In this document: positions 14,559 through 32,059 of the stretch, piece by piece
How the letters are laid out: each line of letters begins with the position of its first letter
How positions within the stretch are numbered: the first letter of the stretch is position 1
DNA from: Bradyrhizobium mercantei
GTDB lineage: Bacteria > Pseudomonadota > Alphaproteobacteria > Rhizobiales > Xanthobacteraceae
Assembly: GCF_001982635.1 (NCBI RefSeq)
Contig: NZ_MKFI01000005.1
Coordinates: forward strand, 124,001 to 188,000
Length of the DNA stretch: 64,000 nt
Reading direction: 5' to 3'
Notes under the pieces: model-generated
Told to the model about the DNA's origin: nothing
Database searches by the model: none
The model's input: only the letters and a program-made list of their open reading frames with translations
Made by a program: the position numbers and the translations under genes

Positions 14559-14978
14559 GCGGACCGGCTCGTGCAGCACGAGCAGCCGGCGCATACGCAT
14601 GAAAATCCCCTTCCGAGGGCCCGTGGTTGCCCGGGTCGGCCGTCGCCGATGGCTTTTGATCCGATGCGGTCATGAGCGCGAGAGTTCATCCTTGCGCCAA
14701 CCGCGAAAATGACGGCTGATGATCTATCGACACGCAGCGGGATCGGACCCAATTTGTATTGCTATTAGGTCAATGCTGCTGCCCGATATCCCCTCGTTCC
14801 GAAATTGCCTGGCGTCACCCTACTTACGATCGTGCGGCCATGCTTTGGTCAAAACTGCGTTGAGTGTTTGGCGGGACCATCGACGTAACGAACCGATGCG
14901 ATTCGCCTCTTTTGGTGACCCGGGATCAGGGGACAGGTCGCCACCGCATTCTTGAGATGCCCGCTGCAAAGGCTTGCG
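14559..14978. other. 420-bp gap without a supported gene
   Basis: No open frame here has convincing coding character. The stretch at about 14740-14870 is visibly less GC-rich than the surroundings and resembles a promoter region for the histidine kinase downstream. Short complementary arms (GCTCGTGC / GCACGAGC, about 14567-14583) just after the GGDEF gene could form a weak terminator without a T-run. Confidence 0.4.
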
Positions 14979-17585
14979 ATGGAAAGGGCAGGGTTCGAAA
15001 CGGCCAGGAATCTCGCTTTTGGCGACGCTCGGAGCATCGCGACCTACTCGGCCGAAATCTTGATAGTTGCGGTGATTTATGGCGGCCTTGCCGAATCCGC
15101 CCAGTTCCTTCCCGCGATAAATCCAACCGGGACACCGCTATGGCCACCGACCGGGCTTGCGCTCGCGCTGGTCCTGCTGCGCGGCTATCGGATCTGGCCC
15201 GCGATCCTGCTGGGGGCCCTCTCTCCTTACCTTATGGCGGCCGACCGGTCGCTCCTGGCGTTGGGCGCCGCCGGGATCGGCAGCCTGCTTGCTGCATCTG
15301 CCGGGGCATGGATGATCGGCCGTTGGTCGAACGGTCGCCGGACATTTGCCACGCCTCTCGGCGTCGCAAAGTTTGCTATCATTTGCTTTGCGCCGACCGC
15401 GATCATCAGCTCAACCATCGCGTTGGCCGGTTTCACGCTCGTCAACGAATCGAGTCTCTCCGATTCCGTCGTCACCGGGTTGAGCTGGTGGCATGCGGAC
15501 GCCGCGGGGGCCCTGGTGATTGCGCCGGTCATCGTGCTCTGGGCGACGATGCGCCTAGGCGGCTCCTCCAGATGGAAGCTGTTGGAATCGATCGCTGTCA
15601 CCGCTCTCGCTGCTATCATCGGGATGGTTGCTTACAGCCCGCTGATCGGCAGCAACCTCATCAGTGCTGGCCTTGACGTGTCGCTGCCGCATCGGGGCCT
15701 GCTGGGCTTTCTGATTTTACTACCCCTGGTATGGGCCGGCCTGCGCGGGGATCGATGCAGCGCGTCGACGGCTGCGTTCGTTTTTGTCGGAATGGCCGTG
15801 TGGGGGTTCTCGGTGGGGAATGATCCATTTCCGAAAATGGATCCGAATGGCGCATTGTTGTCCCTGCTCGTGCTTTCGATCAGCGTATCGGCGCCTCCTC
15901 TTGCCCTGGCAGCGGCAATCGCGACGCGCCAGACTACGGAAGCCCGTCTCCTTTCTGTTCAGGGCCAACTCAACGATCAACTGGAACGGAAAGCCCTGGC
16001 GCTGGACAGCATCAGACGACACTTCCAAACCCTGATCGAAGGCGTCGTCGACTATGCGATTTTTGCGCTTGATAAAGAAGGACACGTCACGAGCTGGAAT
16101 AGCAGCGCTCAGAAAATCATCGGCTACACCTCGGAAGAAATCGTAGGCAAGCATTTTGGAATATTCTATCGGCCGGATGAACGCCGCGCGGGTTCGCCAG
16201 CACACGCACTGGAGACGGCAATCGAAAAAGGCAAGTACGACGTCGAGGGTTGGCGCATCAGAAAGAATGGTACGCCGTTCTTCATCACGGGATCAGTCTC
16301 GTCGAGCCATGACGACGCAGGAAATCTGATCGGCTTCATCAGTATTCTACGAGACGCAACCGAACGACGCGATGCGGAAGAGAAGCTGGTTCAGGCCCGC
16401 GAGCAGCTCGCGATGTCGCAAAAAATGGAGGCAATCGGCAAACTGACCGGCGGGATTGCGCACGACTTCAACAATCTATTGATGATCATTGGAGGCAGCG
16501 CCCAGATCTTCACGCGACTGCTTGATCCAAAGCTGCCCAAGGCAATCGAAGCCATCCAGACCGCGGCCAAACGCGGCGAGAGCCTCACGCGCCAATTGTT
16601 GACATTCTCCCGTCACCAGCATCTCAGCCCGACGATCGTTGATCTGAATGCGTCCATCAAGAACATGCGGACCATGATCGAGAGCTCGCTACGCGGCAAC
16701 ATCGTGTACAACGAGAACGTCGGTGAGGGCATAGCCTCGGTCAAGGTGGACCTCGCCGAGCTGGAGCTTGCGATCGTCAACATCGCGGTCAATGCGCGCG
16801 ATGCAATGCCAAGCGGCGGCACGTTCACCTTGTCCGTCCATGCGGTGACCGCGAACCAGGAAACCGGCGGCGATCGCCGCGCAAAGACCTTCTTTGCGAT
16901 CGCGCTTGGCGATACCGGCACCGGCATTCCGCCAAACCTTCTGTCCAAGATGTTCGATCCGTTCTTCACGACCAAGGAGGTCGGCAAAGGGACCGGGCTC
17001 GGTCTGTCCCAGGTCTATGGTTTCGCGCACCAGGCCGGCGGAACGGTGACGGCAGACAGCAAGGTTGGACAAGGAACAACCATTACAATCTACCTGCCGT
17101 CCTGCGCAGACGAGCAGATCGCCAACAAAGACCTCGCCGCCGCCAAGGCCAGACCGAGGCAGCCGCAGCGCCAGACTGTTCTCGTCGTCGACGACAGCCC
17201 GGAAGTGGCGGATGTGACATCCTCGCTGTTCGAACATCTGGGTTATGAAACGATCTATCGGGATTCGGCCGAAGCGGCGTTGAAACTGCTCGATGCCGGC
17301 ACACGGATCGATCTCGTCTTCAGCGATATCGTGATGCCGGGAACCATCGATGGCGTCGGGCTCGCGAGAGAGGTGCGGTCGCGGTACCCGGGTTTGCCGA
17401 TAGCCCTCACCACCGGTTACAGCGACGCTGCAAATGCAGCGCCGCCTAGTCTGAAAATACTGCGCAAGCCGTTCGATACCGAGGCACTCAGGGATTTCAT
17501 CCAGGATCTTGCGCCCCCGAGATCCGCGCGATCAGCCGGCGTACGCCTGGCGTCGGATTCGAGCGACGCTCTGCGCAGAAATTGA
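14979..17585 (+). CDS. MASE1-PAS hybrid sensor histidine kinase with C-terminal receiver
   Basis: About 868 residues. The N-terminal MASE1-type membrane sensor spans roughly residues 20-310 (NPTGTPLWPPTGLALALVLL is typical). A PAS domain lies near 349-460. The kinase core follows, with phospho-acceptor His in GGIAHDFNNLL near residue 491 and HATPase boxes (NIAVNARDAM, GDTGTGIP, GKGTGLGLSQVYGFA). The C-terminal receiver begins LVVDDSPEV near 734, with acceptor Asp in LVFSDIVMPG. The frame opens at a TTG at 14952, but the ATG at 14979 with AAGG upstream is better. Codon use is less GC-biased than in neighbours. Confidence 0.92.
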   Translation: MERAGFETARNLAFGDARSIATYSAEILIVAVIYGGLAESAQFLPAINPTGTPLWPPTGLALALVLLRGYRIWPAILLGALSPYLMAADRSLLALGAAGIGSLLAASAGAWMIGRWSNGRRTFATPLGVAKFAIICFAPTAIISSTIALAGFTLVNESSLSDSVVTGLSWWHADAAGALVIAPVIVLWATMRLGGSSRWKLLESIAVTALAAIIGMVAYSPLIGSNLISAGLDVSLPHRGLLGFLILLPLVWAGLRGDRCSASTAAFVFVGMAVWGFSVGNDPFPKMDPNGALLSLLVLSISVSAPPLALAAAIATRQTTEARLLSVQGQLNDQLERKALALDSIRRHFQTLIEGVVDYAIFALDKEGHVTSWNSSAQKIIGYTSEEIVGKHFGIFYRPDERRAGSPAHALETAIEKGKYDVEGWRIRKNGTPFFITGSVSSSHDDAGNLIGFISILRDATERRDAEEKLVQAREQLAMSQKMEAIGKLTGGIAHDFNNLLMIIGGSAQIFTRLLDPKLPKAIEAIQTAAKRGESLTRQLLTFSRHQHLSPTIVDLNASIKNMRTMIESSLRGNIVYNENVGEGIASVKVDLAELELAIVNIAVNARDAMPSGGTFTLSVHAVTANQETGGDRRAKTFFAIALGDTGTGIPPNLLSKMFDPFFTTKEVGKGTGLGLSQVYGFAHQAGGTVTADSKVGQGTTITIYLPSCADEQIANKDLAAAKARPRQPQRQTVLVVDDSPEVADVTSSLFEHLGYETIYRDSAEAALKLLDAGTRIDLVFSDIVMPGTIDGVGLAREVRSRYPGLPIALTTGYSDAANAAPPSLKILRKPFDTEALRDFIQDLAPPRSARSAGVRLASDSSDALRRN

Positions 17586-17648
17586 CCGGTCGCGCCGGCG
17601 CGGGCGTTGATCGGATACGCGACTCACCGACCGCGCAGCAAACGCGCT

Positions 17649-17789
17649 GTCGTCCCTGCCTAGTGCGCAATTGCGCACGGGAGCAGGGACCCATAACCAC
17701 AAATGGTTATTGCTGAACGACGGCGGAACGACGAATCCCGATCACAACATCTGCCGCGGCGTATGGGTCCCTGCTTTCGCAGGGACGAC
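17649..17789. repeat. Palindromic repeat family B, copy 2
   Basis: Starts GTCGTCCCTGC and ends GCAGGGACGAC, with inner AGCAGGGACCCATA / TATGGGTCCCTGCT arms that are exact complements. It lies between the convergent histidine kinase and amine oxidase genes. The rest of the 289-bp gap shows nothing else. Confidence 0.9.
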
Positions 17790-17874
17790 ACCTATTTTGC
17801 GGCAGCACTCGACACCAAATCGCGACAAACACTGCGACAAGGAGGCCATACTCAGCCGTCACCTGACTCGACCA

Positions 17875-19284
17875 TCAATTCATCGGCCCGGCCGAACGCG
17901 GCGCGCGGCGCTTGTGCTTTGTGGACGACGCAGCGGACTCCGGCGCCGTCTCCTTGATCCCGCCGATTCTGCGCAGCGCGGCGTCGGCGGCGCGCTCGCC
18001 GCTTTCCCAGGCGCCGTCGACGGTGCCCCACAGCGTCTCATGGGTGGCCTCGCCGGCGAGATACATCGCGCCGATCGGCTCGGTCAGGATCCGGCGGGAG
18101 AATTGCGCGCCGGGTACTGCCGCCGACATCGCGCCCTGGATGAAGGGCTGCGCATTCCAGCGCGTCGCGCTGGTCTTCTTCACGGCACCACCGACCTCGC
18201 TGCCATAGAGCCTGGTCAGCCATTCCACCGCGAACGCAACCATCGCCTTCTCGCCCTGCGCGGAGAGATCGCGGCCGAACGAGCCGGCGACGTCGATCGT
18301 GCACAGCGAGGAGCCGGCGATATTGCCGTAGAGCAGCGCCGTCTTGGTCGAATTGCTCTGCTCGATGATGACGTCGTCGTGCGACAGCCCGAGCGGATTG
18401 CCGGGGAGTTGCAGCGCGATGCGATCGTAGCTGCCGAGGCTCAGCTTGGCGGCGGCATCGAGCGCGCGCTTCGGAAGCTCGGGCGCAAACTTGATGTTGC
18501 CGCTTGCGAGCACGTTGCTCGACACGGTGACGATGGCAGCGCGCGCGACTATCTTGCCGGACGGCGTCTCGACCATCACGTCGCGGTTGCTCCACAGAAT
18601 GCGCTGCGCCGGCGTCGACAGCGCCAGCGGCAGCCCGTCGCCGAGCTTTGCGATCAGCGCGCCGAGCCCCTGCCGGCAGGCGATCGCGGTGTTGCGATCC
18701 TGCGCGCGCACCTTGTCGACGGCGGAGAGATCCTTCAGGTCCTTGCCGCAGAAATTGGGACCGAGCAGGAATTCCGCGGTGCCGGCCCAGTCGCCGAGAT
18801 CCTTCGGCATCGCGGCGGCGCAGGCGATATCGCCCTTGCGCGCCGCGTCGTCGATGGCGCGATTGGCGCGCACCAACGCCGCGAGAAATTCCTCGGTCTC
18901 GCCGGGACGGGCGTAGCGGCGGCCGATGCGGATCTTCTGGCCCGCGGGCGCGGTGACGATGTCGAGGCCCGCGGAACGCGCCAGCCGGATCATCGGATTG
19001 GTCTCGGGATTGTGCATCCAGCGCGCGCCGCGATCGAACGGCACGTCGAAGGTCGATGCATCGGTCTGGCAGCGGCCGCCGATTTGGCCCGATGCCTCCA
19101 CCACGATCACCTTGCGGTTTGCAGCCGCGATCCGCCGTGCCGCGGCGATGCCGGCGGCGCCGGCGCCGATCACGACGATGTCGGCCTCGCGCGGCGACGG
19201 CGCAGCAAGCGCCCGGCCGCCCAGCACAGGCGTCAGCGCGAGAGCAGCCGACGCCGACAGGAAATCACGGCGGGTCACAGGCAT
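17875..19284 (-). CDS. Tat-exported flavin-dependent amine oxidase
   Basis: 469 residues. The N-terminus carries a twin-arginine signal (TRRDFLSASAALALTP) and a cleavage-like ALAA. The FAD dinucleotide-binding motif follows (VVIGAGAAGIAAARRI near residue 36, then VVEASGQIGGR). The C-terminal FAD-binding segment (GAMYLAGEATHETLWGTVDGA) is typical of the monoamine oxidase / flavin amine oxidase superfamily. Probably oxidises an amine or amino acid in the periplasm; substrate unknown. The C-terminus is basic (KHKRRAPRS). Divergent from the YiiX-like gene across 198 bp. Confidence 0.88.
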   Translation of the reverse strand: MPVTRRDFLSASAALALTPVLGGRALAAPSPREADIVVIGAGAAGIAAARRIAAANRKVIVVEASGQIGGRCQTDASTFDVPFDRGARWMHNPETNPMIRLARSAGLDIVTAPAGQKIRIGRRYARPGETEEFLAALVRANRAIDDAARKGDIACAAAMPKDLGDWAGTAEFLLGPNFCGKDLKDLSAVDKVRAQDRNTAIACRQGLGALIAKLGDGLPLALSTPAQRILWSNRDVMVETPSGKIVARAAIVTVSSNVLASGNIKFAPELPKRALDAAAKLSLGSYDRIALQLPGNPLGLSHDDVIIEQSNSTKTALLYGNIAGSSLCTIDVAGSFGRDLSAQGEKAMVAFAVEWLTRLYGSEVGGAVKKTSATRWNAQPFIQGAMSAAVPGAQFSRRILTEPIGAMYLAGEATHETLWGTVDGAWESGERAADAALRRIGGIKETAPESAASSTKHKRRAPRSAGPMN

Positions 19285-19381
19285 GACATAGCTTCTGGCA
19301 TGGTTTCCGCCGACTTGCAGAGAATGGGAACGCTTCGCGAACTGTGCCGCATCTCACCGACCGCAGCAACACTCATGGTAA

Positions 19382-19397
19382 ATCAATCATGATTGAT
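19382..19397. promoter_or_regulatory. Perfect 16-bp palindrome in a divergent promoter region
   Basis: ATCAATCATGATTGAT is its own reverse complement. It lies between the divergent amine oxidase gene (start 19284) and the YiiX-like gene (start 19483), about 100 bp from each. In a high-GC genome a 16-bp AT-rich perfect palindrome is unlikely by chance, so it is a good operator candidate. No regulator gene is adjacent. Confidence 0.5.
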
Positions 19398-19482
19398 CCG
19401 CCGATGGCATGAACTAAATTGCAACGGCTTGCGACCATGATTAAGTCAAACGAAGCGGTCGTAGAACCGCTGGGGGGAATCC

Positions 19483-20358
19483 ATGGGCGTAATGCTCGAT
19501 ACCGTCGGTAAATGGCTCGCGGGGTACCTGTCGAAGGAAGTCCCCGGTTACGAGCCGTTCACGCCGAGCGACCCGGACCAGTTGCGGGGCATCATGCAGC
19601 CCGGCGATGTGCTGCTGGTCGAAGGCAACAACCGCATTTCCGGCATCATCAAATACCTCACGCAATCGACCTGGTCGCACGCCGCGCTGTTTGTCGGGCC
19701 GATCGACGGCGCGTTCGAGCCCGACGGCGAACAGCATGTGCTGATCGAGGCCAATATCGGTGAAGGCGTGACCTCCGCGCCGCTGTCGAAATACCTGGCC
19801 TATCACACTCGCCTCTGCCGTCCGGTCGGACTGTCGTTCGAGGACCGCACCACGGTGTGCCGCTACGCCATCAACCGCATCGGCTTCGGCTACGACACCA
19901 AGAACATCGTCGATCTCGCGCGCTATCTGTTCCCGCTGCCGATTCCGCAGCGCTGGCGCCGCCGCATGATCGCGTTCGGTTCCGGCGATCCGACCAAGAT
20001 CATCTGCTCGGCGCTGATCGCGCAGGCGTTCGACGCCGTGCGCTATCCGATCCTGCCCAAGATCACGCGCGCCGCCAGCCGCAAGGCGCGCCGCGAGATC
20101 CTGCATATCCGCGATTCCTCGCTCTACATGCCGCGCGACTTCGACATCTCGCCCTATTTCGAAGTCATCAAACCCACCATCGTGCACGGTTTCGACTACA
20201 CGGCCCTGCACTGGGCCGACAAGCAGAAGCCGCTCCAGGAGGTAGCGGGCGAATTCGGTGTGTTTCCAGAATCGCCGCCGCTTGTTCCTGAAACGATTGA
20301 CGAAGAGACGGCGCTTCCGGCTGCGGAAGTGACGGTGGCAGAGACCGCGAGAGTCTAG
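19483..20358 (+). CDS. YiiX/YebB-like NlpC/P60-type cysteine hydrolase
   Basis: 291 residues. It resembles the circularly permuted papain-like branch of the NlpC/P60 superfamily: the catalytic His comes first (STWSHAALFVG near residue 66) and the Cys later (KIICSALIAQAF near residue 177). No signal peptide is visible. The Pro/Glu-rich tail from about 255 is probably disordered. Substrate may be a peptidoglycan or lipid amide/ester. ATG at 19483 with GGGGGGAAT upstream. The stop codon overlaps the stop codon of the convergent TonB receptor gene within a shared CTAG. Confidence 0.8.
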   Translation: MGVMLDTVGKWLAGYLSKEVPGYEPFTPSDPDQLRGIMQPGDVLLVEGNNRISGIIKYLTQSTWSHAALFVGPIDGAFEPDGEQHVLIEANIGEGVTSAPLSKYLAYHTRLCRPVGLSFEDRTTVCRYAINRIGFGYDTKNIVDLARYLFPLPIPQRWRRRMIAFGSGDPTKIICSALIAQAFDAVRYPILPKITRAASRKARREILHIRDSSLYMPRDFDISPYFEVIKPTIVHGFDYTALHWADKQKPLQEVAGEFGVFPESPPLVPETIDEETALPAAEVTVAETARV

Positions 20359-22631
20359 AACGTCGCCGCCAGTGTCAGCCGGACGGCGAGCGGCTCGGCA
20401 GGATGCACATGGCGGTCGGCGACACCGTCGATCGGTTCGCCCGGCAGCCGCGACAGATAGTAGTATTCGATCTGGTTGGTCTGGGCGTTGAAGAGATTGA
20501 GGACGTCGAGCTGCAGCCGCATCCCGTTGTCGAATTTGTAGCCGGCGCGGGCGTTGACGATGAACGACGATTGCGAGCGGACGCTGTCGTCCTCGATCAG
20601 CGGACGCGGGCCGAAGTAGCGGGCACGCAGGCTGCCGAACCAGCCGCTGTCGCGCCCGAAGGTGATGCCACCGCTGGCGACCCAGGCCGGTGCCCCCGGA
20701 ATGAAATTGCCGACCGGATCATCATCGGTGAAGCGCGCGCGCGTGTAGGCGAGATCGAAATCGAGGCTCATCCACGGCAGCAGCTTGTACTGGTTGGTCC
20801 ACTCGACGCCGACGCGCCGGCTCGGCCGGCTCGGCTCGGTGGTGCCGGCATCGCCGACGAACAGCAGCTCGGAATCGAAGTCGAGGACGAACACGGACAG
20901 CGACGAGGTGAGGCCGTCGATCGCCTTGGTGCGGATGCCGAGCTCGGCGCCCTTCGAGCGCACCAGAAGCGGCACGCGCTCGAGCGGCGTCACCTTGTCG
21001 TTGGGATCGACCGTGATCGTCGCACCGCGGATATCGTTGGAGTGCAGGCCGAGGCCGGCATTGCCGTAGAACTCGGTCCTGGACCAGGGACCGAGCACGA
21101 TGCCGGCCTTCGGGCTCGTCATCGCGGCCTGTGCATTGCCGGAATTCTGTGGCGTGTCGCTCAGCACATGGCCGGCGAAATAGTCCTCGCGGAGGCCGAC
21201 CGTGGTGCGCAGCCAGTTGGTCCAGCGCGCGGTGCTATCGGCCCACAGCGCGACGCTGCCCTCCTGCACCTGGTCGTTGCGCACGGTGGACAGGATCTCG
21301 CGCTGCGCGGTCTTGAACAGGCCGACATTGATGTCGTCGTAGCGGGTCTGCACGCCCACGCGCGTCTGGGTATCGATGCCGGCGATGCGGATATCGGCGG
21401 CGTGGCTGGCATCGAAGCCGTACACGGTGCGCCGGTCGGTCTGGTTGAACTGGTCGCCGTTGACGGGGTCGTCGAGGAAATAGGTGAAGTCGTTGTAGAG
21501 CTGCAGCGAGGAGCGGATCACATAGGCATTGAGCTTGGTCTGCCCGTAGTCGCTGGACTGCGCCCAGTTGCCGGACAGGCTGAAGCGGCTGGAGGTGCCG
21601 CCGTCGGTCGGATTGAGCGAGCCGTAGCGGCCGATCAGGCCCTGATCGATGGCGCGCTGCGCGAGCTGGTCGGTCGAATTCCAGCCGTTGGAATAGGCCG
21701 TCGCGGTCAGCGAGAAGCCGTCGGTCGCGGTGCCCTGGCTGTAGCGCAGCACGCCGTTCAGCTTGCGGATGTCGTCGGGCACGTCCCACGGGCCGTTGTA
21801 TTTGTTGGCCTCGAAGGCAGCGAGCAGCGTCCCCTCACCGGCCCTGCTCGAGCCCGCGGCCATCGCGCGCTGATAGCCGAAGCTGCCGGCGGTCAGCTCG
21901 GCGATATTCTTCGGCAGCCCGTTCAGATAATTGATGTCGACCGCGCCGGCCGAAGCGAAATCGCCCTTGTCCGCATAGTAGGGTCCCTTGCGGACATCCA
22001 TCGACTGGATCAGCTCCGGAATCAGGAAGTTGATGTCGGCATAACCCTGGCCGTGGCCATGGGTCGGCATGTTGACGGGCATGCCGTCCACGGTGATGGC
22101 GAGATCGGTGCCGTGGTCGAGATTGAACCCGCGCAGGAAATACTGATTGGCTTTACCCTCGCCGGAATGCTGGGTGACGATCAGCCCCGGCACTACCTCC
22201 AGCACTTCGCCGACGCGCGAGACCGGTCGTGCGTTCACTTCGTCGCCGCTGATCTGCCGCGCGCTGGCGCCGGTCGGTTGCAGATTGGAGGCAGCCACGG
22301 TCGCGGAACCGCTGGTGATTCCGTTGCTCGCGGAACTAGCTTGGCTCGGCTGCGGCGCTGCGGGCTTGCGGCCGCCGCCGGTGACATGGTGCGGCCGGGA
22401 GGGCTTGGCACGCTTCGGCGGCGCCTGATCGGGCGACGTTACCGTCACCGGCGGCAACTGCCCCGGTGTGGCGGCGACGGTCTGCGCTTCAGCGACCGGC
22501 ACGAATGCGGCAATGGATGCGGCGGCGGGAAATATCCGCCATGCACTACGACGCAACGCCCATGCCCCCGCATGATACCTGTTACAGTCACGCGACGACC
22601 GCACCAGTCCAACCAACCCCGGCCAGCGCAC
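20355..22631 (-). CDS. TonB-dependent outer-membrane receptor, predicted nickel-responsive
   Basis: About 758 residues. A signal-like segment (RIFPAAASIAAFVPVAEAQ) leads to a Pro/Lys-rich linker with VTVTSPD as a possible TonB box. The plug domain follows (ISGDEVNARPVSRVGEVLEVVPGLIV, YFLRGFNLDHGTDLAI, NMPTHGHGQGYADIN). A long beta-barrel ends in an aromatic residue (LTLAATF). The longest frame begins at a GTG at 22631; a TTG at 22556 after a G-rich run would give a more usual signal peptide, and no in-frame ATG exists nearby. It is divergent from nikR, with a NikR operator between, which predicts nickel-chelate (or cobalt) import. Confidence 0.92.
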   Translation of the reverse strand: MRWPGLVGLVRSSRDCNRYHAGAWALRRSAWRIFPAAASIAAFVPVAEAQTVAATPGQLPPVTVTSPDQAPPKRAKPSRPHHVTGGGRKPAAPQPSQASSASNGITSGSATVAASNLQPTGASARQISGDEVNARPVSRVGEVLEVVPGLIVTQHSGEGKANQYFLRGFNLDHGTDLAITVDGMPVNMPTHGHGQGYADINFLIPELIQSMDVRKGPYYADKGDFASAGAVDINYLNGLPKNIAELTAGSFGYQRAMAAGSSRAGEGTLLAAFEANKYNGPWDVPDDIRKLNGVLRYSQGTATDGFSLTATAYSNGWNSTDQLAQRAIDQGLIGRYGSLNPTDGGTSSRFSLSGNWAQSSDYGQTKLNAYVIRSSLQLYNDFTYFLDDPVNGDQFNQTDRRTVYGFDASHAADIRIAGIDTQTRVGVQTRYDDINVGLFKTAQREILSTVRNDQVQEGSVALWADSTARWTNWLRTTVGLREDYFAGHVLSDTPQNSGNAQAAMTSPKAGIVLGPWSRTEFYGNAGLGLHSNDIRGATITVDPNDKVTPLERVPLLVRSKGAELGIRTKAIDGLTSSLSVFVLDFDSELLFVGDAGTTEPSRPSRRVGVEWTNQYKLLPWMSLDFDLAYTRARFTDDDPVGNFIPGAPAWVASGGITFGRDSGWFGSLRARYFGPRPLIEDDSVRSQSSFIVNARAGYKFDNGMRLQLDVLNLFNAQTNQIEYYYLSRLPGEPIDGVADRHVHPAEPLAVRLTLAATF

Positions 22632-22644
22632 GCTAGCAAGCGCG

Positions 22645-22672
22645 GTATGACGTTACAATAGAAATATCATAC
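22645..22672. promoter_or_regulatory. NikR operator
   Basis: GTATGA (22645-22650), 16 bases, TCATAC (22667-22672) is an exact match to the published NikR consensus GTATGA-N16-TCATAC. It is centred in the 66-bp gap between nikR and the divergent TonB receptor gene, so one site can control both. A -10-like TATGAT for the receptor lies inside the site on the minus strand. Confidence 0.9.
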
Positions 22673-22697
22673 TCGCGTTCAGCAACACGGATAATCC

Positions 22698-23135
22698 ATG
22701 CAACGCATCACCATCACCATCGAGGATGACCTGCTCGCGGAGATCGACGCCGCCGCCGAGGCGCGCGGTTATCAGAACCGCTCCGAGATCATCCGCGATC
22801 TCGCGCGCGCCGGCTTGCAGCAGAGCGCGGAGGAAGCGCCGTCAGGGCAATGCGTCGCGGCGCTGGTCTATGTCTACGATCATGCCGCGCGCGACCTGTC
22901 GAAACGGCTGGTGCAGAATTTCCACGGCCATCACGATCTGTCGCTGGCGACGCTGCATGTCCATCTCGACGACGACAGCTGCATGGAGGTGACGGCGCTG
23001 AAGGGCGCGAGCGGCGAGGTCCGCCATCTCGCCGATCACATCATCGCCGAACGCGGCGTGCGCTACGGCCGCGTCGTGATGATCCCGACCGCCGCGGACA
23101 AGAAGTCGCGGAAGCGGGGGCATCGGCACGATTGA
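22698..23135 (+). CDS. nikR: Nickel-responsive regulator NikR
   Basis: 145 residues: an N-terminal ribbon-helix-helix (MQRITITIEDDLLAEID, then YQNRSEIIRDLAR) and a C-terminal ACT-like nickel-binding domain. The square-planar nickel ligands known from E. coli NikR fall at the same numbers here: H76 (in NFHGHH), H87 and H89 (in LHVHL) and C95 (in DDSCMEV). The His- and Arg-rich C-terminus is a little longer than usual. ATG at 22698. No nikABCDE or urease/hydrogenase gene is visible nearby, so its local target is the divergent receptor. Confidence 0.95.
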   Translation: MQRITITIEDDLLAEIDAAAEARGYQNRSEIIRDLARAGLQQSAEEAPSGQCVAALVYVYDHAARDLSKRLVQNFHGHHDLSLATLHVHLDDDSCMEVTALKGASGEVRHLADHIIAERGVRYGRVVMIPTAADKKSRKRGHRHD

Positions 23136-23145
23136 GGACGCTTAC

Positions 23146-23171
23146 CTCTCCCCGCAAGAGCGGGGCGGGAG
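23146..23171. repeat. Short hairpin between convergent nikR and HMG-CoA lyase genes
   Basis: CTCTCCCCGC AAGA GCGGGGCGGGAG can fold with a GC-rich stem. There is no T-run. It looks like a remnant of the family F repeat (compare the arms at 52895-53026), or a weak bidirectional terminator. Only 44 bp separate the two genes. Confidence 0.4.
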
Positions 23172-23179
23172 AAGACCGG

Positions 23180-24127
23180 CTACGCCGCCTTTGCCTTGCT
23201 GCCGCGCGGCAGACCGGCACGGGCGAGGCCGCCATAGAGCTGTTCGTTCGGCATCTCGGATTTCAGGATCGCGCGCACCTCGACCAGGCGATCGAGATCG
23301 ATGCCGGTCGGAAATCCCTTGCTCTCGCACAGAAAGACGAGGTCCTCGAATACGACATTGCCGGTCGCGCCCGGCGCGAACGGGCAGCCGCCGAGGCCGC
23401 CGAGCGAGCCGTCGAGCACGCGGGCGCCTTCATCAAGCGCGGCGGAGGCATTGGCAATGCCCATGCCGCGGGTGTCGTGCAGGTGGACGCAGACCGGCTT
23501 GGAGCCCGCGATCTTCACCGCGCCGCGCGTCAGCTCGCCGACCGCCTTCGGCCCGGCATAGCCGACGGTATCGGCGATCGCGACCATGTCGACGCCGACC
23601 TCGTAGAGCTTCTCGGTGAGGCGCAGCACCTCCTTCGGATCGACCGCGCCCACGATCGAGCAGCCCAGCCCCATCGAGATCGCGGCATTGACCAGCGGCT
23701 TGTGCGCGCTGGCATCGCGCAATTCACAAAGGCGCTTGATGTTCTCGATCGCGGATTCACGCGAGCGGTTGGCATTGGCCTGGCTGTGCTCCTCGGTCGC
23801 GGACACCACCGAAGCGATCTCGGCGACACCGGAGGCCAGCGCCTCGTTGACGCCGCGCTCGTTCAGCGCCAGAGCGACGCCATGCGCGCCGGGCAGCGCG
23901 GCGATGGTGGCAACCACGTCGCGAACATCGACGAATTGCGGAAAAGTCTTGGCCGGCAGGAACGAGCCGACCTCGAAATGCCGGACGCCGGCGGCATATT
24001 CATCGCGCACCCAGCGCTGTTTCGCCGCGGTCGACGGAAATGTCTTCACGAGCTGCAGGCCGTCGCGCAGACCGACCTCGCGCAGACTCACTCTGTCGTT
24101 GGGATAGATATCGTGGACGCGGGTCAT
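23180..24127 (-). CDS. Hydroxymethylglutaryl-CoA lyase family protein
   Basis: 315-residue HMGL-like TIM barrel that would cleave 3-hydroxy-3-methylglutaryl-CoA, or a similar 3-hydroxyacyl-CoA, to acetyl-CoA and an oxoacid. Seen: REVGLRDGLQ near residue 16 (substrate Arg and metal Asp), VHLHDTRGMG near residue 213 (metal His), and GGLGGCPFAPGATGN near residue 245, the active-site loop with the catalytic Cys. It follows the CoA-transferase gene by 7 bp, so the two form an operon that activates an acid to its CoA ester and then cleaves it. Confidence 0.88.
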   Translation of the reverse strand: MTRVHDIYPNDRVSLREVGLRDGLQLVKTFPSTAAKQRWVRDEYAAGVRHFEVGSFLPAKTFPQFVDVRDVVATIAALPGAHGVALALNERGVNEALASGVAEIASVVSATEEHSQANANRSRESAIENIKRLCELRDASAHKPLVNAAISMGLGCSIVGAVDPKEVLRLTEKLYEVGVDMVAIADTVGYAGPKAVGELTRGAVKIAGSKPVCVHLHDTRGMGIANASAALDEGARVLDGSLGGLGGCPFAPGATGNVVFEDLVFLCESKGFPTGIDLDRLVEVRAILKSEMPNEQLYGGLARAGLPRGSKAKAA

Positions 24128-24134
24128 GTCAGCC

Positions 24135-25304
24135 TCACGCAGCGTTTCCGGTTGATGAAATCTTTTGTTGTGCGAGCTCGGCGCGGACCGCCTCGGTATC
24201 GGCGCCGAGCACCGGCACTTTCAGGCCTTCGCCGATATTGCGGCCGTTCCATTCGACCGGCAGCGCAGGAACGCGGAACGGCTTGCCGTCGGCGTTCAAA
24301 TTGTTGACGAGACCGCCGGGACGCAGCACATGCGGGTCCTGCAACAAATCCTCCGGCCGGTTGATCGGCGAGAAGCAGATGTTGAGCGCGTCGAGCCTCG
24401 TCGAAAGATCGGCGACGTTCCAGCCCTTGATCACCTCGGCGACGCGCGGAATGATCCGGTCGCGCGCCATGATGCGATCCGTGGTCGAGCGCAGCGTCGG
24501 ATCGTCGGCGAATTCCTGCAAGCCGAACTCGCGGCAAAAACTCTGCCAATGGCCTTCGGTGACGACGCCGATGAAGATGCGATCGCCGCCGGCGGCGTCG
24601 AAGATGTCGTAGATCGGCCAGGCGTGCTCGCGTTCCGGCATCGAGCGCGGCTTGCGTCCGGTCATCTCGTACTCGACCATGTGCTGGGCAACCAGGAACA
24701 GGCAATTCTCGAACAGGCCGATGCGGATGTCGGCGCCATCAGCCTTGCCGCCACGCTTCTGATAGAGCGCGGCGAGGATCGAGATCACCCCGAACATGCC
24801 GCCCATGATGTCGTTGGCGGACGAGCCGACGCGCTGCGGCTTCTCGCTGGTGCCGGTCATCGCGGCGAGCCCCGACATCATCTGCACGACCTCGTCGAGC
24901 GCCGGGCGATGATCGTAGGGACCGGAGAGAAAGCCCTTGTGGCCGGCGATGATCAGATGCGGATATTTTTGGCGTAGCTCCTCGGGCCCTAGCCCCTGCT
25001 TGTCGAGCTGGCCGTCGCGGAAATTCTCCAGGAACACGTCGGCGCCGGTGAGCAGCCTGTGCATCGTGTCGCGGTCCTCGGCCTTGGCGAAATCGAGCAC
25101 GATGCTGCGCTTGCCGCGGTTGAACAGCGGGAAGAACGAGACGCCCATGCCGCCGAGCGAGCGGGTCTTGTCGCCCGCCGGAGGTTCGACCTTGATTACC
25201 TCGGCGCCGAGTTGCGCCAGGATCATGCCGCAGGTCGGCCCCATCACCATGTGGGTCATCTCGACGACCCTCACGCCCTCCAGCGGCAGTCCGCTCCCGG
25301 TCAT
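24135..25304 (-). CDS. Family III (CaiB/BaiF) CoA-transferase
   Basis: About 389 residues. Family III CoA-transferases move CoA between carboxylic acids through an active-site Asp, here probably in GSSANDIMGGMFG near residue 165. The N-terminal LEGVRVVEMTHMVMGPTCGMILAQLGAEVIKVEPP is typical. The frame is open to 25448, but the ATG at 25304 is preceded by CGGAGAAACC, a proper ribosome-binding site, and begins at the usual family N-terminus. First gene of the operon with the HMG-CoA lyase homolog; a LysR regulator is divergent. Confidence 0.88.
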   Translation of the reverse strand: MTGSGLPLEGVRVVEMTHMVMGPTCGMILAQLGAEVIKVEPPAGDKTRSLGGMGVSFFPLFNRGKRSIVLDFAKAEDRDTMHRLLTGADVFLENFRDGQLDKQGLGPEELRQKYPHLIIAGHKGFLSGPYDHRPALDEVVQMMSGLAAMTGTSEKPQRVGSSANDIMGGMFGVISILAALYQKRGGKADGADIRIGLFENCLFLVAQHMVEYEMTGRKPRSMPEREHAWPIYDIFDAAGGDRIFIGVVTEGHWQSFCREFGLQEFADDPTLRSTTDRIMARDRIIPRVAEVIKGWNVADLSTRLDALNICFSPINRPEDLLQDPHVLRPGGLVNNLNADGKPFRVPALPVEWNGRNIGEGLKVPVLGADTEAVRAELAQQKISSTGNAA

Positions 25305-25437
25305 CGGTTTCTCCGTGCTCGTGCGCTCTTGTTCTGACGCGTTTTCATCATGCGAACCGCTACCCAGTTGGCTCGAAAACGCTTTGTAATAGGCGCAGGT
25401 TAGGCTTCCGCACGCTATCTGAAAAATATAATCTGTC

Positions 25438-25464
25438 GAATAGTGCATTCGTCGTTCTAGAACG
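25438..25464. promoter_or_regulatory. Palindromes upstream of the LysR gene
   Basis: A perfect 12-bp palindrome CGTTCTAGAACG (25453-25464) lies 10 bp before the lysR ATG. Just before it GAAT-N5-ATTC (25438-25450) is a second dyad. LysR-type regulators usually bind dyads in the divergent promoter they share with their target, so these are candidate autoregulatory and activation sites. Confidence 0.4.
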
Positions 25465-25474
25465 CTGAACCCTC

Positions 25475-26398
25475 ATGGATTCGCGCCAGCTTCGCTATTT
25501 CATCGCAGTTTACGAACAGCGCAACCTGTCGCGGGCGGCGGATCAGGCCAACGTCGCGCAATCCGCGCTGAGCCACCACATCGCCAATCTCGAAGCGGAA
25601 TTCGCCACGCCGCTGTTCGAGCGCAAGCCACGCGGCATGGAACCGACCGCCGCCGGCGAGCGGCTCTACGAGCATGCCCGCATCATCCTGCGCGCGATGG
25701 CGGCGGCCGAGCGCGAGATCAAGGAAGGCGGCAGCGAGATCGCCGGCGACATCTCGATCGGCATGGCCAATTCCGGGATGAAGGCGATCGGCGTGCCGCT
25801 GATGCGGACCGTGCTGACCAAATATCCGAACCTGAAGCTGTCGCTGACCGAGAGTCTCTCCGGCGCGACGCTGCTGCATCTGCTGAGCTCCGATGTCGAC
25901 CTCGCGCTGGTCTACAACCCGCCCTCGGAGAAGGACCTGGTCGCCGAGCCGGTGCTGGAGGAGCAGATGTTCTGCGTCGGCACCGAGAAGCTGATCGGCA
26001 AGAAGGCGCCGATCGCCTTCGAGGAAGTGACGCGGCTGCCGCTGATCCTGTTGCGCTACGGACTGTCGGCGCGCGCATTGCTGGATGATCCCGTGCTGCT
26101 GAAGCGGCTCGAGGCCAACGCCATCATGCATCTCAACTCGACCAGCGGCATGATCGGCGCGCTGACCGCGGGCCTCGGCTGCACGATCGCGACGACGCAT
26201 TTCGTCAGCGAGCCGTTGAAGGCACGGCTATTGGTCGCGCGCGAGGTCATCGAACCAAAACTGACCCGCACGCTCTATCTCTGCCGCCTGCGCAACCGCC
26301 CGATGACGTATGTCATGGAGGAGATGTGCCGCCTGATCCGCGCCCTGATCGCAGACCAGGTCGGCCGCGGCGCCTGGGAGGCCACGCTTCTCATCTGA
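25475..26398 (+). CDS. LysR-family transcriptional regulator
   Basis: 307 residues. The N-terminal winged helix is typical: MDSRQLRYFIAVYEQRNLSRAADQ, then NVAQSALSHHIANLEAEF and LFERKPRGMEPTAAGERL. An effector-binding periplasmic-protein-like domain follows. It is divergent from the CoA-transferase / HMG-CoA lyase operon, across about 170 bp, which by LysR convention is its likely target. The MFS gene 208 bp downstream on the same strand may carry the substrate. Confidence 0.93.
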   Translation: MDSRQLRYFIAVYEQRNLSRAADQANVAQSALSHHIANLEAEFATPLFERKPRGMEPTAAGERLYEHARIILRAMAAAEREIKEGGSEIAGDISIGMANSGMKAIGVPLMRTVLTKYPNLKLSLTESLSGATLLHLLSSDVDLALVYNPPSEKDLVAEPVLEEQMFCVGTEKLIGKKAPIAFEEVTRLPLILLRYGLSARALLDDPVLLKRLEANAIMHLNSTSGMIGALTAGLGCTIATTHFVSEPLKARLLVAREVIEPKLTRTLYLCRLRNRPMTYVMEEMCRLIRALIADQVGRGAWEATLLI

Positions 26399-26470
26399 AG
26401 CGCTTTCAAGCGAAGCCTGTCCCGCACGCGATGCGGGGTGGACGCCGGTTCGCGTCAAGAAAGCGCGTCT
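26399..26470. repeat. Diverged rhizobial intergenic repeat
   Basis: AGCGCTTTCAAGCGAAGCC ... CGCCGGTTCGCGTCAAGAAAGCGCGTC resembles an element I recall as common in Bradyrhizobium intergenic DNA (AAGCG-AAG ... GGTTCGCGTGAAGAAAACGCG). This is the only copy I found in the window. Its ends are imperfectly complementary (GCGCTTTC / GAAAGCGC). Confidence 0.4.
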
Positions 26471-26489
26471 TGGATAGTCCCATCGAAAA

Positions 26490-26512
26490 TATCGAACGAT
26501 CTCTTCGATATG
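26490..26512. promoter_or_regulatory. 8-bp inverted repeat upstream of the MFS gene
   Basis: ATATCGAA (26490-26497) and TTCGATAT (26505-26512) are exact complements with a 7-bp spacer, giving a 15-bp centre-to-centre dyad typical of a dimeric regulator. It lies 95 bp before the MFS start in AT-richer DNA. Confidence 0.45.
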
Positions 26513-26606
26513 TTCGTCTGGATTTCTGGCTTCCGGCTGCCAAACATGGGCGACGGGCACGCCTTCGCAAGAAAGGCGGCCGCTGGACCACACGGGGAGG
26601 ACCATC

Positions 26607-28019
26607 ATGAGCGCCGTCGAACTCGGCCCGGTTGCCGATCTCACCAACACGACCAGCGGACCGGACCAGATCTCGCGGCGGCTCGAGGCGCTGCCGACGT
26701 CCGCCTATGTCTGGCGGCTGGTGATCCTGCTCTCGCTCGGCGGCTGCTTCGAAATCTACGATCTGTTCTTCACCGGCTATATCGCCCCGGGGCTCGCCCG
26801 CAGCGGGCTGATGACCACGACGACGCAGGCCTTCTTCGGCTTCTCCGGCATCGGCGCCTTCGTCGCGGCGACCTTCGCCGGCCTTTTCATCGGCACCTTC
26901 TGCCTCGGCTTCCTCGCCGATCGCTACGGGCGCAAGGCGGTCTTCACCTGGTCGCTGCTGTTCTACAGCGCGGCATCCGTCGTCATGGCGTGCCAGACCA
27001 CCCCGGGCGGCCTCTTGCTGTGGCGCTTCATCGCCGGAATCGGGATCGGCATCGAGGTCATCACCATCGACGCCTACATCACCGAGCTGGTGCCGAGCTG
27101 GATGCGCGGCCGGGCCTTTGCGATCAACCAGGCGGTGATGCTGTCGGCGGTGCCGATTGTCGCCGCGCTGTCGTGGTGGCTCGTGCCGCTCTCGCCTCAC
27201 GGCATCGACGGCTGGCGCTGGGTGGTGCTGATCGGCGCAGCCGCCAGCATGATCATCTGGGTGCTGCGGCTGTACGTGCCGGAAAGCCCGCTCTGGCTCG
27301 CCCGCCATGGCCGCGCCGCCGAGGCCGAAAAGATCATGCGGACGCTCGAGGCTGCCTCGGGCACGACGGCATCGCGCCCCGCACCCGTGGCCGTGCCGAC
27401 GACGGCGCGCGCGCGGGCCGAGACCGGTTACGCAGACCTGTTCCGGCCGCCCTACGCTTCGCTGGTCGTGCTGTTCATGATTTTCAATCTCTGCCAGGCG
27501 TTCGGTGTCTACGGCTTCTCCAACTGGGTTCCGGCGCTGCTGGTCGAGAAGGGCATCAACGTCACCAAGAGCCTGCAATATTCCTTCATCATCGCGTTCG
27601 CCTATCCGCTGGCGCCGCTGTTGGCTTCAACCTTCGCCGACCGCTTCGAGCGCAAATGGATCATCTGCGGCGCGGCCGCCGCGATCGCGGTGTTCGGCCT
27701 CGCCTTCGCGCAACTCACTGAGCCGGTGTTGCTGATTGCCAGCGGCGTGCTGGTGACCGGCGCCAACATGACGCTGTCCTACGCCTATCACGCCTATCAG
27801 ACCGAGGTGTTCCCGACCGCGATCCGGGCCCGCGCGGCGGGGCTGGTCTACTCGATGAGCCGGCTCAGCGCGACCTTCTCCGGCTTCATCGTGGCGTTCA
27901 TGTTGAAGGAGGCCGGCGTCAGCGGGGTGTTCGGCCTGATCACCGCGGCGATGGTCATCGTGATCGTTGCGATCGGTGTCTGGGGACCTCTGGTCCGCGG
28001 CAAGCCGCTCGACGCCTGA
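26607..28019 (+). CDS. MFS transporter (metabolite:H+ symporter-like)
   Basis: 470 residues, about 12 membrane helices. The loop 2-3 motif of the family is present: GFLADRYGRKAVF near residue 97. IDAYITELVPSWMRGRAFAINQ near residue 155 resembles the sugar / aromatic-acid / alpha-ketoglutarate symporter branch. The ATG at 26607 is preceded by GGGGAGGACCATC, a strong ribosome-binding site. Follows the LysR gene on the same strand after a repeat and a dyad. A substrate related to the CoA-transferase operon is possible but unproven. Confidence 0.88.
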   Translation: MSAVELGPVADLTNTTSGPDQISRRLEALPTSAYVWRLVILLSLGGCFEIYDLFFTGYIAPGLARSGLMTTTTQAFFGFSGIGAFVAATFAGLFIGTFCLGFLADRYGRKAVFTWSLLFYSAASVVMACQTTPGGLLLWRFIAGIGIGIEVITIDAYITELVPSWMRGRAFAINQAVMLSAVPIVAALSWWLVPLSPHGIDGWRWVVLIGAAASMIIWVLRLYVPESPLWLARHGRAAEAEKIMRTLEAASGTTASRPAPVAVPTTARARAETGYADLFRPPYASLVVLFMIFNLCQAFGVYGFSNWVPALLVEKGINVTKSLQYSFIIAFAYPLAPLLASTFADRFERKWIICGAAAAIAVFGLAFAQLTEPVLLIASGVLVTGANMTLSYAYHAYQTEVFPTAIRARAAGLVYSMSRLSATFSGFIVAFMLKEAGVSGVFGLITAAMVIVIVAIGVWGPLVRGKPLDA

Positions 28020-28107
28020 AACGCTCTCAACGCGACACAAACGGCACTTGCCGAAGCCATATTGGGTGGCTACCTCTCGCTCGTCAATTTGCAGAGGTAA
28101 CCCGGTC

Positions 28108-28860
28108 ATGTTCGACGCCGCCGTCAAGGCGCTTTCGCAAATCCTGTCGCCGCCGATGCGCACCATCCTGTGGCGCTCGATCGGGCTTGCGCTGGTGTTG
28201 ATCACCGTACTGGCAATCGGGTTGCAGCGGCTGCTGAGCTGGTTTGCCGACACCGGCGAGGTCTGGGCCGAAGGCATGCTCGGCCCCAACTTCCATTCCA
28301 CGCTGCACGTGCTGTCCTGGATCATCTCGATCTCGGCGGGCCTCGGCGTCGTGCTCGGCGGCATCTTCCTGATGCCCGCGATCACCTCGCTGGTGGCGAG
28401 CCTGTTCGTCGACGACGTCGCCGACCATGTCGAGCGCGAGCACTATCCGGCCGATCATCCCGGCGTGGCGCTGCCGGTCACGCTGGCGACGATCGAGGGC
28501 GTCAAGACCGCGTTGCTGACGATCCTGGTCTATCTGGTCGCGCTGCCGTTCGTGCTGTTCGCGGGCGCGGGCTTCATCATCTTCTTCATCGCGACCGCCT
28601 GGCTGCTCGGCCGCGAGTATTTCGAGCTCGCGGCGATGCGATTCCGCTCGCCTGCTGACGCCAAGGCGATGCGCAAGGAGAATGCGGCGACGGTGTTCAC
28701 CGCGGGCCTGTTCATCGCAGCCTTCGTCTCGATCCCGATCGTCAATCTGGCGACGCCGCTGTTCGGCATGGCCTTCATGGTTCACATGTACAAGCGGCTG
28801 TCCGGCCCGCGGCGCGAGCTGATTGAGCCGGCGCGGCGAAGCAACGTCTCCTCGATCTAG
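28108..28860 (+). CDS. EI24 / CysZ-like membrane protein
   Basis: About 250 residues with several long hydrophobic segments (LALVLITVLAIGLQRLL, WIISISAGLGVVLGGIFLMPAITSLVASLF, LLTILVYLVALPFVLFAGAGFIIFFIATAWLL). This arrangement and the length fit the EI24 family, whose best-known bacterial member CysZ imports sulfate. The family also contains proteins of unknown role, so function is uncertain. The ATG at 28108 is preceded by AGAGGTAA; the longer frame is rejected. Its stop codon overlaps that of the convergent exporter gene in a shared CTAG. Confidence 0.8.
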   Translation: MFDAAVKALSQILSPPMRTILWRSIGLALVLITVLAIGLQRLLSWFADTGEVWAEGMLGPNFHSTLHVLSWIISISAGLGVVLGGIFLMPAITSLVASLFVDDVADHVEREHYPADHPGVALPVTLATIEGVKTALLTILVYLVALPFVLFAGAGFIIFFIATAWLLGREYFELAAMRFRSPADAKAMRKENAATVFTAGLFIAAFVSIPIVNLATPLFGMAFMVHMYKRLSGPRRELIEPARRSNVSSI

Positions 28861-30425
28861 CTCGCATCCCGCGGCGCCGGCACCGATGCAGGCGTCCGAT
28901 CGCGCGCAAAGGGCACCAGCAGCAGCCCGACGATTGCCACGCAGGCAAGCATCGCCCATGCCTCGTTGACGCTGAGTGCAAGCGACGCCCGCTCGACCAG
29001 CGGCCGGATGAACGCCACCGTCGCCTCGTCGGGCGGACCCGGCGGACGGTTGATCAGCAACATCGGATCGAGCCCGATCGCCTGCGCCGCGCTGACATCG
29101 CCTGCCAGCAGCCGCGCACGGAAATCCTCACCATAGATCGGGCTTCGGCCGTAGAGGATCGTGTCGATCAGGGCGATCCCGATCGCGCCACCCAGATTGC
29201 GCATCAGGTTGAACAGTCCGCTGGCGTCGGCAATCTCCGCCTCCGGCAGCGCGCCCAGCGCGATGCGCGTCGGCGGCAGCAGACAGAACATGATCGCGAC
29301 ACCACGGACGACCTGCGGCCATAGCATCTCGCCGAAATCAGCGGTGCGGGGCTGAAAGGCGCTCAAGCCGAGACCGAGTGCGAACAAGGCGAAGCCCGCG
29401 CCGGTCAACAACCGGGCGCCGATGCGGCTTTCAAGGACGGCCGCAAGCGGCGCGGCGACGAGCTGCGCAATTCCGGTGACCAGCACGATGGTGCCGATCT
29501 CGAAGGCATCATGGCGGCGGACGAAGCCGAGGAACACCGGCATCAGGTAGGTCGATCCGTACAGGCCGACGCCGAGGCAAAAGCTCAGGGCACAACCGAT
29601 CGCGAACGAACGCCGCCGGAACAGAGTCAATCGCGCAATCGGATACGCAGCACCAAGTGTACGCCGGATCAACAGTGCCATCCCGGCGACGCTTCCAATC
29701 AGCAAGCTGAGGCACAGCATCGAGACCCAGCCACGTTGCGGCGCTTCCTTCAGGCCGATCATGAAGCTTGCGAGCACCGCTGCGAGCAAGACCAGCGATC
29801 CCTTGTCCAGCCTGATCACCGCGCGGAAATGCACCTCTTCCTTCGGAAGCAGCAACGGTGTGACCGAGGCGGCAATCGCCCCGGGAATCACATTGATCAG
29901 GAACAGCCACGGCCACGACCAGGTTTGCGTGATCCAGCCGCCGACGACGGGTCCAACGGTCGGTGCAAGCACCGCGACGACGCCGGCGATCGTGGTGGCT
30001 ACCGCATGAAGACGGACCGGGAATAACATGAACACGGCGGAGAACACCGCAGGGATCAGGACGCCGACGGAAAATCCCTGCAGCACGCGAAACACCAGCA
30101 GCAAGGCAAAGCCGCCGCTGACGGCGCAGCCGATCGACGCGACAGTGAACAGGCTGACGGCGATCGCGAACAACCATCGCAGCGACAGCACGTGCGTGAG
30201 CAGTCCGGTCAGCGGGATCGCGATCACCTCGGCGATCAGATAGGCGGTCTGGATCCAGCTCATCGTGGACGGCGAGATCGCAAGCGCACGCTGGATCGTC
30301 GGCAACGAGGTCGCGACCACCTGGATGTCGAGGATCGCCATGAACATGCCGAGGCACATCAGGAGGAAGCCCGCCCAGGTCACAACCGATGGGCTGTCGG
30401 TTGGGTGATCCGCCCGGGCGCTCAT
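28857..30425 (-). CDS. DHA2-family MFS exporter (EmrB/QacA type)
   Basis: 522 residues with about 14 predicted membrane helices, the drug:H+ antiporter-2 layout. The N-terminus (FLLMCLGMFMAILDIQVVATSLPTIQRAL) is a signature of the group, and VAVLAPTVGPVVGGWIT near residue 150 matches the helix-5 motif C of antiporters. Last gene of a three-gene operon: its ATG overlaps the stop of the ICMT-like gene by 4 bp (ATGA). It is probably the exporter of the polyketide-derived product, or a self-protection pump. Confidence 0.9.
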   Translation of the reverse strand: MSARADHPTDSPSVVTWAGFLLMCLGMFMAILDIQVVATSLPTIQRALAISPSTMSWIQTAYLIAEVIAIPLTGLLTHVLSLRWLFAIAVSLFTVASIGCAVSGGFALLLVFRVLQGFSVGVLIPAVFSAVFMLFPVRLHAVATTIAGVVAVLAPTVGPVVGGWITQTWSWPWLFLINVIPGAIAASVTPLLLPKEEVHFRAVIRLDKGSLVLLAAVLASFMIGLKEAPQRGWVSMLCLSLLIGSVAGMALLIRRTLGAAYPIARLTLFRRRSFAIGCALSFCLGVGLYGSTYLMPVFLGFVRRHDAFEIGTIVLVTGIAQLVAAPLAAVLESRIGARLLTGAGFALFALGLGLSAFQPRTADFGEMLWPQVVRGVAIMFCLLPPTRIALGALPEAEIADASGLFNLMRNLGGAIGIALIDTILYGRSPIYGEDFRARLLAGDVSAAQAIGLDPMLLINRPPGPPDEATVAFIRPLVERASLALSVNEAWAMLACVAIVGLLLVPFARDRTPASVPAPRDAS

Positions 30426-30934
30426 GGCGTGCTGCTACGCGGCCAGTCGGAAATCGAGAGGGCACGGCCCTCGGCGCGGATTCGGACCGCAAGCACCGCG
30501 AGATTGAGCACCGTGAAGACCAGCGCCAACAGCGGCAGATGCAGTGCGAGCGGAAGCAGCGCGATTTCACCGACGACGACGGCATAGTTTGGATGCGGGA
30601 AGAATCGATAAGGCCCGGACGCGACCAGCGGCACGCCCGGCAATACGATGATGCGCGTGGTCCATCGCGGCCCGAGCGCGGTGAGGACCCACAGCCGCAA
30701 GACTTGCAGCGACGCAAACGCCGCCAGGATCGTCAGATTGACGTCCTGGTTACGGCCCCAGATCCACAACGCGATCAGCCAGCCGGCGTGAACCAGCACG
30801 ATGAGCTTGTAGTGACCGGCGCCGACCTCGATTGCGCCACACGCTAGCAGCCGCGCCGTGTTGCGGCGTGACAGTACGAGCTCGCCGAGACGCTGCAGCG
30901 TGACCAGCGCAAGGATGACCGACGCGATGCTCAC
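30422..30934 (-). CDS. Isoprenylcysteine carboxyl methyltransferase-like membrane protein
   Basis: 170-residue ICMT-family protein with about five hydrophobic segments and the C-terminal SAM-site motif (GPYRFFPHPNYAVVVGE near residue 108). Bacteria lack prenylated Ras-like substrates. In Bacillus subtilis the homolog BpsB lies beside a type III PKS and methylates alkylpyrones. The same pairing here suggests O-methylation of the polyketide product. Translation starts at a GTG that overlaps the PKS stop codon by 4 bp, and its own stop overlaps the exporter ATG. Confidence 0.85.
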   Translation of the reverse strand: MSIASVILALVTLQRLGELVLSRRNTARLLACGAIEVGAGHYKLIVLVHAGWLIALWIWGRNQDVNLTILAAFASLQVLRLWVLTALGPRWTTRIIVLPGVPLVASGPYRFFPHPNYAVVVGEIALLPLALHLPLLALVFTVLNLAVLAVRIRAEGRALSISDWPRSSTP

Positions 30935-31992: not shown

Positions 31993-32059
31993 CGTGGCTC
32001 CAGTTCCCCCGCTTGTGGAACCACGCGACGTGCAAAATATTTCAGACGCCGAGAGATAG

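Follow-up and report, generated by a model that had tools for sequence, protein, structure and literature searches.

The window, a stretch of 64,000 nucleotides of Bradyrhizobium mercantei DNA, contains nikR and a divergent gene for a TonB-dependent receptor. There is a palindrome between the two genes, and the features of the locus are as follows.

20355 to 22556, minus strand: TonB-dependent receptor, 733 aa from a likely TTG start placed by orthologues, with Plug and TonB_dep_Rec_b-barrel domains
22050 to 22061, minus strand: HGHG motif in the plug domain (H166 to G169, numbered from the TTG start), H166 and H168 invariant in 26/26
22630 to 22635, minus strand: putative -10 element TAGCGT, 17 bp from the -35 element, a CTTGCTAGCGT-like block being conserved in many Bradyrhizobium
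22645 to 22672, no strand assigned: NikR operator GTATGA-N16-TCATAC, an exact palindrome, the sole exact match in the genome, conserved upstream of orthologous receptors
22653 to 22658, minus strand: putative -35 element TTGTAA inside the operator spacer, at the same or nearly the same spacer position in many orthologous sites
22698 to 23135, plus strand: nikR, nickel-responsive regulator of 145 aa, above the curated cut-offs of TIGR02793 and PRK02967, ungapped with 1q5v and with H76, H87, H89 and C95

NikR, the operator and the receptor

By its sequence, the gene to the right of the operator encodes a canonical NikR. The protein contains PF01402 (RHH) and PF08753 (the NikR C-terminal domain) and scores 198.7 bits against TIGR02793 (cut-off 175.45) and 204.8 bits against PRK02967 (cut-off 83). 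Residues 1-130 align with E. coli NikR (1q5v) with no gap. His76, His87, His89 and Cys95, which we take to be the nickel ligands of E. coli NikR, are all found at the same positions, as the sequence-only reading had claimed.

The 28-mer GTATGACGTTACAATAGAAATATCATAC at 22645-22672 has 0 mismatches to GTATGA-N16-TCATAC and ends 25 bp before the start of nikR, so the perfect operator first described between nikR and the receptor is indeed there. It had also been called identical to the published consensus. This holds for the six-base half-sites, which are the same as in the enterobacterial consensus GTATGAT-[N13/14]-ATCATAC (as printed in PMC545781), but the seven-base left half, GTATGAC, differs by one base. 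A comparison of operator variants (GTATGC-N16-GCATAC in L195, L196 and L199) with the N-terminal strand of NikR gave no clean pattern.

The ORF list has the receptor as 758 aa from a GTG at 22631, and the 66-bp gap first given between nikR and the receptor rests on this codon, which overlaps the putative -10 element. Orthologues such as L134, L136, L137, L140, L141 and L180 have an in-frame stop 79-82 nt past the operator. Just after it, at +85 to +88, a TTG is the first usable start, and a signal-like sequence comes next; in some of the other orthologues there are GTG starts nearby. The window receptor has a TTG at +88 from the operator (22556), and a signal-like N-terminus, read by eye, follows from it. 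This suggests that translation probably starts at 22556 and that the gap is 141 bp.

Both Pfam domains of the receptor are above cut-off. Its structure model (mean pLDDT 78.6, with low confidence at residues 1-93 and 167-171) has the general TonB-receptor fold, which does not discriminate between substrates. The best PDB fold matches are PqqU, YncD and FecA, at low identity; in sequence, the closest solved structures are those of YncD/PqqU and BtuB, all distant relatives. The nearest named receptor loci are from Bradyrhizobium, at 91-92% identity. H166 and H168 of the HGHG motif are invariant in all 26 aligned sequences, including the operator-less receptors L170, L181, L191 and L201, so the pair characterises the receptor but does not prove that metal is bound.

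On the receptor strand, TTGTAA or, in other genera, a TTGACA-like hexamer is found in the spacer, often at positions 15-20 of the site. In many Bradyrhizobium it is followed about 17 bp later, past the operator, by TAGCGT or a similar block. By sequence, a conserved -35-like element of the putative receptor promoter lies under the operator, which fits repression by occlusion.

Rarity of the operator and its conservation with the receptor

The sequence-only reading had called for a search for the operator across the genome. There is 1 exact match to GTATGA-N16-TCATAC, the window site, in the 8,842,857 bases (72 contigs), compared with 0 for the reversed-pattern control. At two mismatches or fewer there are 37 places compared with 27 for the control pattern; the weaker matches are therefore mostly noise, and none stands out by mismatch count. 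We built a site profile from the orthologous sites and ran it on nine stretches of the genome, including the surroundings of three NicO places, the hydrogenase and the urease. The window site scores 46.5 and the next-best imperfect sites score 15.9 (C67:3836) and 13.0 (C23:592960); both have two mismatches and adjoin genes with no visible nickel role. The one-mismatch site C56:362847 has a GC-rich spacer and a negative score. No convincing profile match was found around the NicO places, hydrogenase or urease, and the motif scan of the whole genome and the profile scan of the nine stretches gave no second convincing operator. A wider NikR regulon in this genome was rejected on the control counts and the low profile scores. 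The locus is like E. coli NikR/nikABCDE in regulator family, nickel ligands, operator core and spacing, with an ungapped regulator, but its target is an outer-membrane receptor and it appears to be the only one in these scans.

We surveyed 100 genomes of the family, including that of the window, taking E below 1e-200 to define a close receptor orthologue. The exact pattern is found at 29 places in 27 of the 100 genomes and the control pattern at 0, and there is a nikR match in 46 of the 100, some of the matches being fragments. Besides the window receptor there are 26 close orthologues, 20 of which have a site with no more than one mismatch; for G064 and G086, both among the 20, the site precedes a NiCoT gene, which precedes the receptor. 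G043 has only sites with 2-3 mismatches. The remaining five (G023, G063, G087, G095 and G027) have no site. There is no nikR match in the genomes of G023, G063 and G087 and only a fragment in G095, while in G027 nikR adjoins a different, distant receptor that has an exact site. Over the class as a whole, enrichment of the bare motif is weak, with exact matches in 14 of 289 genomes (window genome included) compared with 5 that have a control match. Three of the 13 class-scan loci outside the window genome are at nikR or CbiM-type genes (L261, L265 and L266, with a Pfam check that covers L265 alone).

Among the named receptor loci, taken as the best 80 of 540, the upstream site is exact at 55, has one mismatch at 5 and two at 7, and is missing at 13, so that 60 of the 80 have a site with at most one mismatch. 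Where nikR lies in the stretch examined (44 loci), the site has at most one mismatch at 40 and two at 4. Where it does not (36 loci), the site is exact at 20, has two mismatches at 3 and is missing at 13. nikR was sought genome-wide for 35 of these 36, L168 being left out. For the comparison of nikR with the site we added the window row and dropped L165 and L168. A site with at most one mismatch is present in 59 of the 67 rows with nikR but in only 1 of the 12 without it (Fisher p 9e-8), and several of the latter are drafts or metagenome bins, so some nikR absences may be assembly gaps. On the receptor tree, which is a quick one with weak branches, there are 8 independent pairs, about 7 in the same direction and 0 opposite (median p 0.016). 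Recoding two doubtful rows gives a Fisher p of 3.9e-6 and 7 pairs, 5.9 the same way and 0 opposite (median p 0.031).

The exceptions run in both directions. A site with at most one mismatch is lacking at eight loci whose genomes bear nikR (L139, L181, L182, L186, L195, L196, L197 and L199); at six of the eight a two-mismatch site is still seen. No nikR was found in the genomes of L156, where the site is exact, and L154, where the site has two changes that look like decay. Receptors with neither operator nor nikR remain in a number of genomes (L150, L151, L160, L188 and L191 among them), so control by NikR is not universal for this receptor. Taken together, the relatives strongly support NikR control of the receptor: as first proposed, it would be under NikR, since the site stays with it in many genomes that have nikR elsewhere, is seldom present when nikR is missing and covers the -35-like element.

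A variant palindrome, GTATGC-N16-GCATAC, lies upstream of the receptor in L195, L196 and L199 (Reyranella, Rhodospirillales). There nikR is in the stretch for L196 and L199 and elsewhere in the genome for L195.

Two of the alternatives we considered leave the receptor outside control by NikR. The palindrome could occur by chance, as the counts at two mismatches (37 and 27) would allow, but the exact match is the only one in 8.84 Mb and its position is kept in most orthologues while the spacer varies. With the family count of 29 against 0 and the conservation at the named loci, we rejected chance, whose probability is negligible. The operator could also serve only autoregulation of nikR, the receptor being an unrelated divergent neighbour; it does lie 25 bp before nikR, the nikR of L055 has an exact site upstream with no receptor adjoining, and that of G022 shares one with a CbiM-type cluster. 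Against this stands a survey of 52 nikR loci (30 of 49 family matches and 22 of 25 from the genomes of the named loci), from which G022 and G027 are separate. Where nikR is beside a receptor, the window included, a site with at most one mismatch lies within 400 bp upstream of nikR in 17 of 18 cases, compared with 1 of 34 where no receptor adjoins (p 1.4e-11, not corrected for relatedness); the other 33 of these 34 have no site with fewer than three mismatches in that interval. Moreover, the exact sites at 20 of the 36 named loci without nikR in the stretch are upstream of the receptor (these include L124, where the contig end cuts, L156, where nikR was not found, and L168, left out of the nikR search). 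Autoregulation alone was rejected on the contrast of 17/18 with 1/34 and is highly improbable. It is the receptor, not nikR, that the site tracks.

In many Bradyrhizobium with nikR away from the receptor, nikR adjoins a gene for a heavy-metal P-type ATPase (L103, L121 and L232-L244), and L103 and L121 also have a gene for a CsoR/RcnR-type repressor there. No operator was found within 400 bp upstream of these nikR genes (loci L033, L035 and L232-L244).

Genes behind the operator and the metal probably imported

We read the flanks of the 29 exact family sites. Eighteen precede close receptor orthologues (two via a NiCoT gene; window included), 2 precede a distant receptor (G052 and G027), 3 a NicO/NiCoT permease (G024, G075 and G031) and 2 CbiM-type importers (G084 and G022), the operators away from receptors thus including those before NicO/NiCoT and DUF4198-CbiM genes. 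One lies between nikR and a divergent FmdE-family gene (G042; FmdE gene L108:4724-5221), and at 3 no nickel gene was seen (G020, G046 and G081). Thus 26 of the 29 precede a receptor, NicO or CbiM gene, or nikR. Gene calls at the loci of relatives were made by a simple script and some starts are misplaced. L120 carries in one stretch nikR, the operator, the receptor, a NiCoT gene with a one-mismatch site and [NiFe] hydrogenase genes.

An ORF with a receptor-like N-terminus, possibly a second receptor, lies at L113:4175-6448 just before an operator-NiCoT-receptor cluster. In the window, the only Rfam match at gathering score is the Bradyrhizobiaceae small RNA BjrC68 (RF02353) at 1300-1381.

The sequence-only reading had the receptor importing a nickel chelate, or cobalt. 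The nickel side of this has gained from the nickel-type importers behind exact operators, the L120 cluster and the lack of a cobalamin riboswitch at the Rfam gathering score in the 64,000 nt of the window, and nickel rather than cobalt is favoured as the substrate. We infer transport of the metal by the receptor, and the form in which it is carried, from this context. The NiCoT and CbiM families are able to carry cobalt, Pfam calls CbiM a cobalt uptake region, and predicted cobalt TonB-dependent receptors are recorded in PMC7689651 (section 17) and in a table of PMC7142613, so the receptor could import cobalt itself or chelated cobalt, with a metal sensor of the NikR type in control. NikR, however, is a nickel-responsive family, no riboswitch marks the window, and L120 groups receptor, NiCoT and [NiFe] hydrogenase genes with two operators; we consider cobalt unlikely. 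The relationship to YncD/PqqU by sequence, and to PqqU, YncD and FecA by fold, would instead suit uptake of chelated iron or of a cofactor, PQQ for example, NikR control being metal cross-talk. These identities are low, the PqqU model gives 51.8 bits against a curated cut-off of 1200, and operators across the family mark nickel-type permeases, which makes this explanation very unlikely.

The genome encodes a [NiFe] hydrogenase and a urease. HupE/UreJ was not found and CbiM had no match in it, and no nik transporter genes were seen by eye in the ORF list from 14000 to 34000, in agreement with the earlier remark that nikABCDE is not nearby. NicO-family matches are on contigs C67, C6 and C1, and none of the three stretches matches the family NiCoT of L102 (tblastn, 1e-3). 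The small C1 NicO protein shares 71% identity with a NicO protein encoded immediately upstream of the receptor gene in L170. Relatives of this L170 protein are encoded immediately downstream of the receptor gene in L022, L026 and L016, so that in four genomes the receptor has a relative of the C1 protein beside it. For the inner-membrane step the C1 protein is the strongest candidate. No operator could be recognised in the stretch examined around its gene, its Pfam score is only just above cut-off and it has His-rich loops like those of RcnA-type exporters; it may therefore not be an importer.

Proposed control of nickel uptake

To our knowledge, few bacteria have been shown to import nickel across the outer membrane, and few of the chelates used are known. 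NikR sites in Helicobacter follow another consensus. Nickel uptake through a TonB-dependent receptor had been cited as known in some bacteria, and FrpB4 of H. pylori, which is repressed by NikR, is an established case (PMC3856676). The nickel role of FrpB4 is experimental, in contrast with that of the window receptor, which is read from sequence, and the two are likened by description only. For Bradyrhizobium diazoefficiens, a table of PMC7142613 lists bll6948 as a predicted receptor for nickel, citing Rodionov et al. 2006. This protein shares with the window receptor the genus of the nearest named relatives, the TonB-dependent type and the predicted nickel substrate, and is possibly its orthologue, by description and not by sequence. 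Similarly likened by description only, the Region VIII, cluster 52 TonB-dependent transporters are given in PMC2771747 as predicted nickel/cobalt receptors with an unknown metallophore and no experimentally studied member. The literature matches listed, in which subscription journals are thinly covered, include no experimental paper on the nikR-operator-receptor arrangement. With NikR-repressed nickel receptors already known in Helicobacter and one predicted in Bradyrhizobium, the window system is a further case.

Our main reading, to which we give a probability of about 0.8, is that 22645-22672 serves to switch an outer-membrane transporter in response to nickel. With ample nickel, Ni-NikR would bind the 28-bp operator and cover the receptor -35 element, and perhaps the divergent nikR promoter too, so that transcription stops. 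When nickel is scarce, the receptor would be made and would import nickel, probably as a chelate, with energy from TonB. The NicO-family protein encoded on C1 may carry out the inner-membrane step, and the imported nickel would feed the [NiFe] hydrogenase and urease.

A broader reading, which we offer only tentatively, joins three suggestions. NikR would be a single-target regulator of the outer membrane; the nickel-chelate receptor and the small NicO protein would form a two-membrane route to hydrogenase and urease; and receptor and operator would be a mobile module, which parts from nikR and enters NiCoT operons or hydrogenase clusters, the operator disappearing where nikR is lost.

The receptor-NicO pairs in relatives suggest a possible inner-membrane step, and the linked absence of operator and nikR is a natural experiment. 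The hydrogenase and urease of Bradyrhizobium need nickel, and the conserved NikR-receptor pair, with one operator, one receptor and one regulator, would offer a clear genetic handle on its supply.
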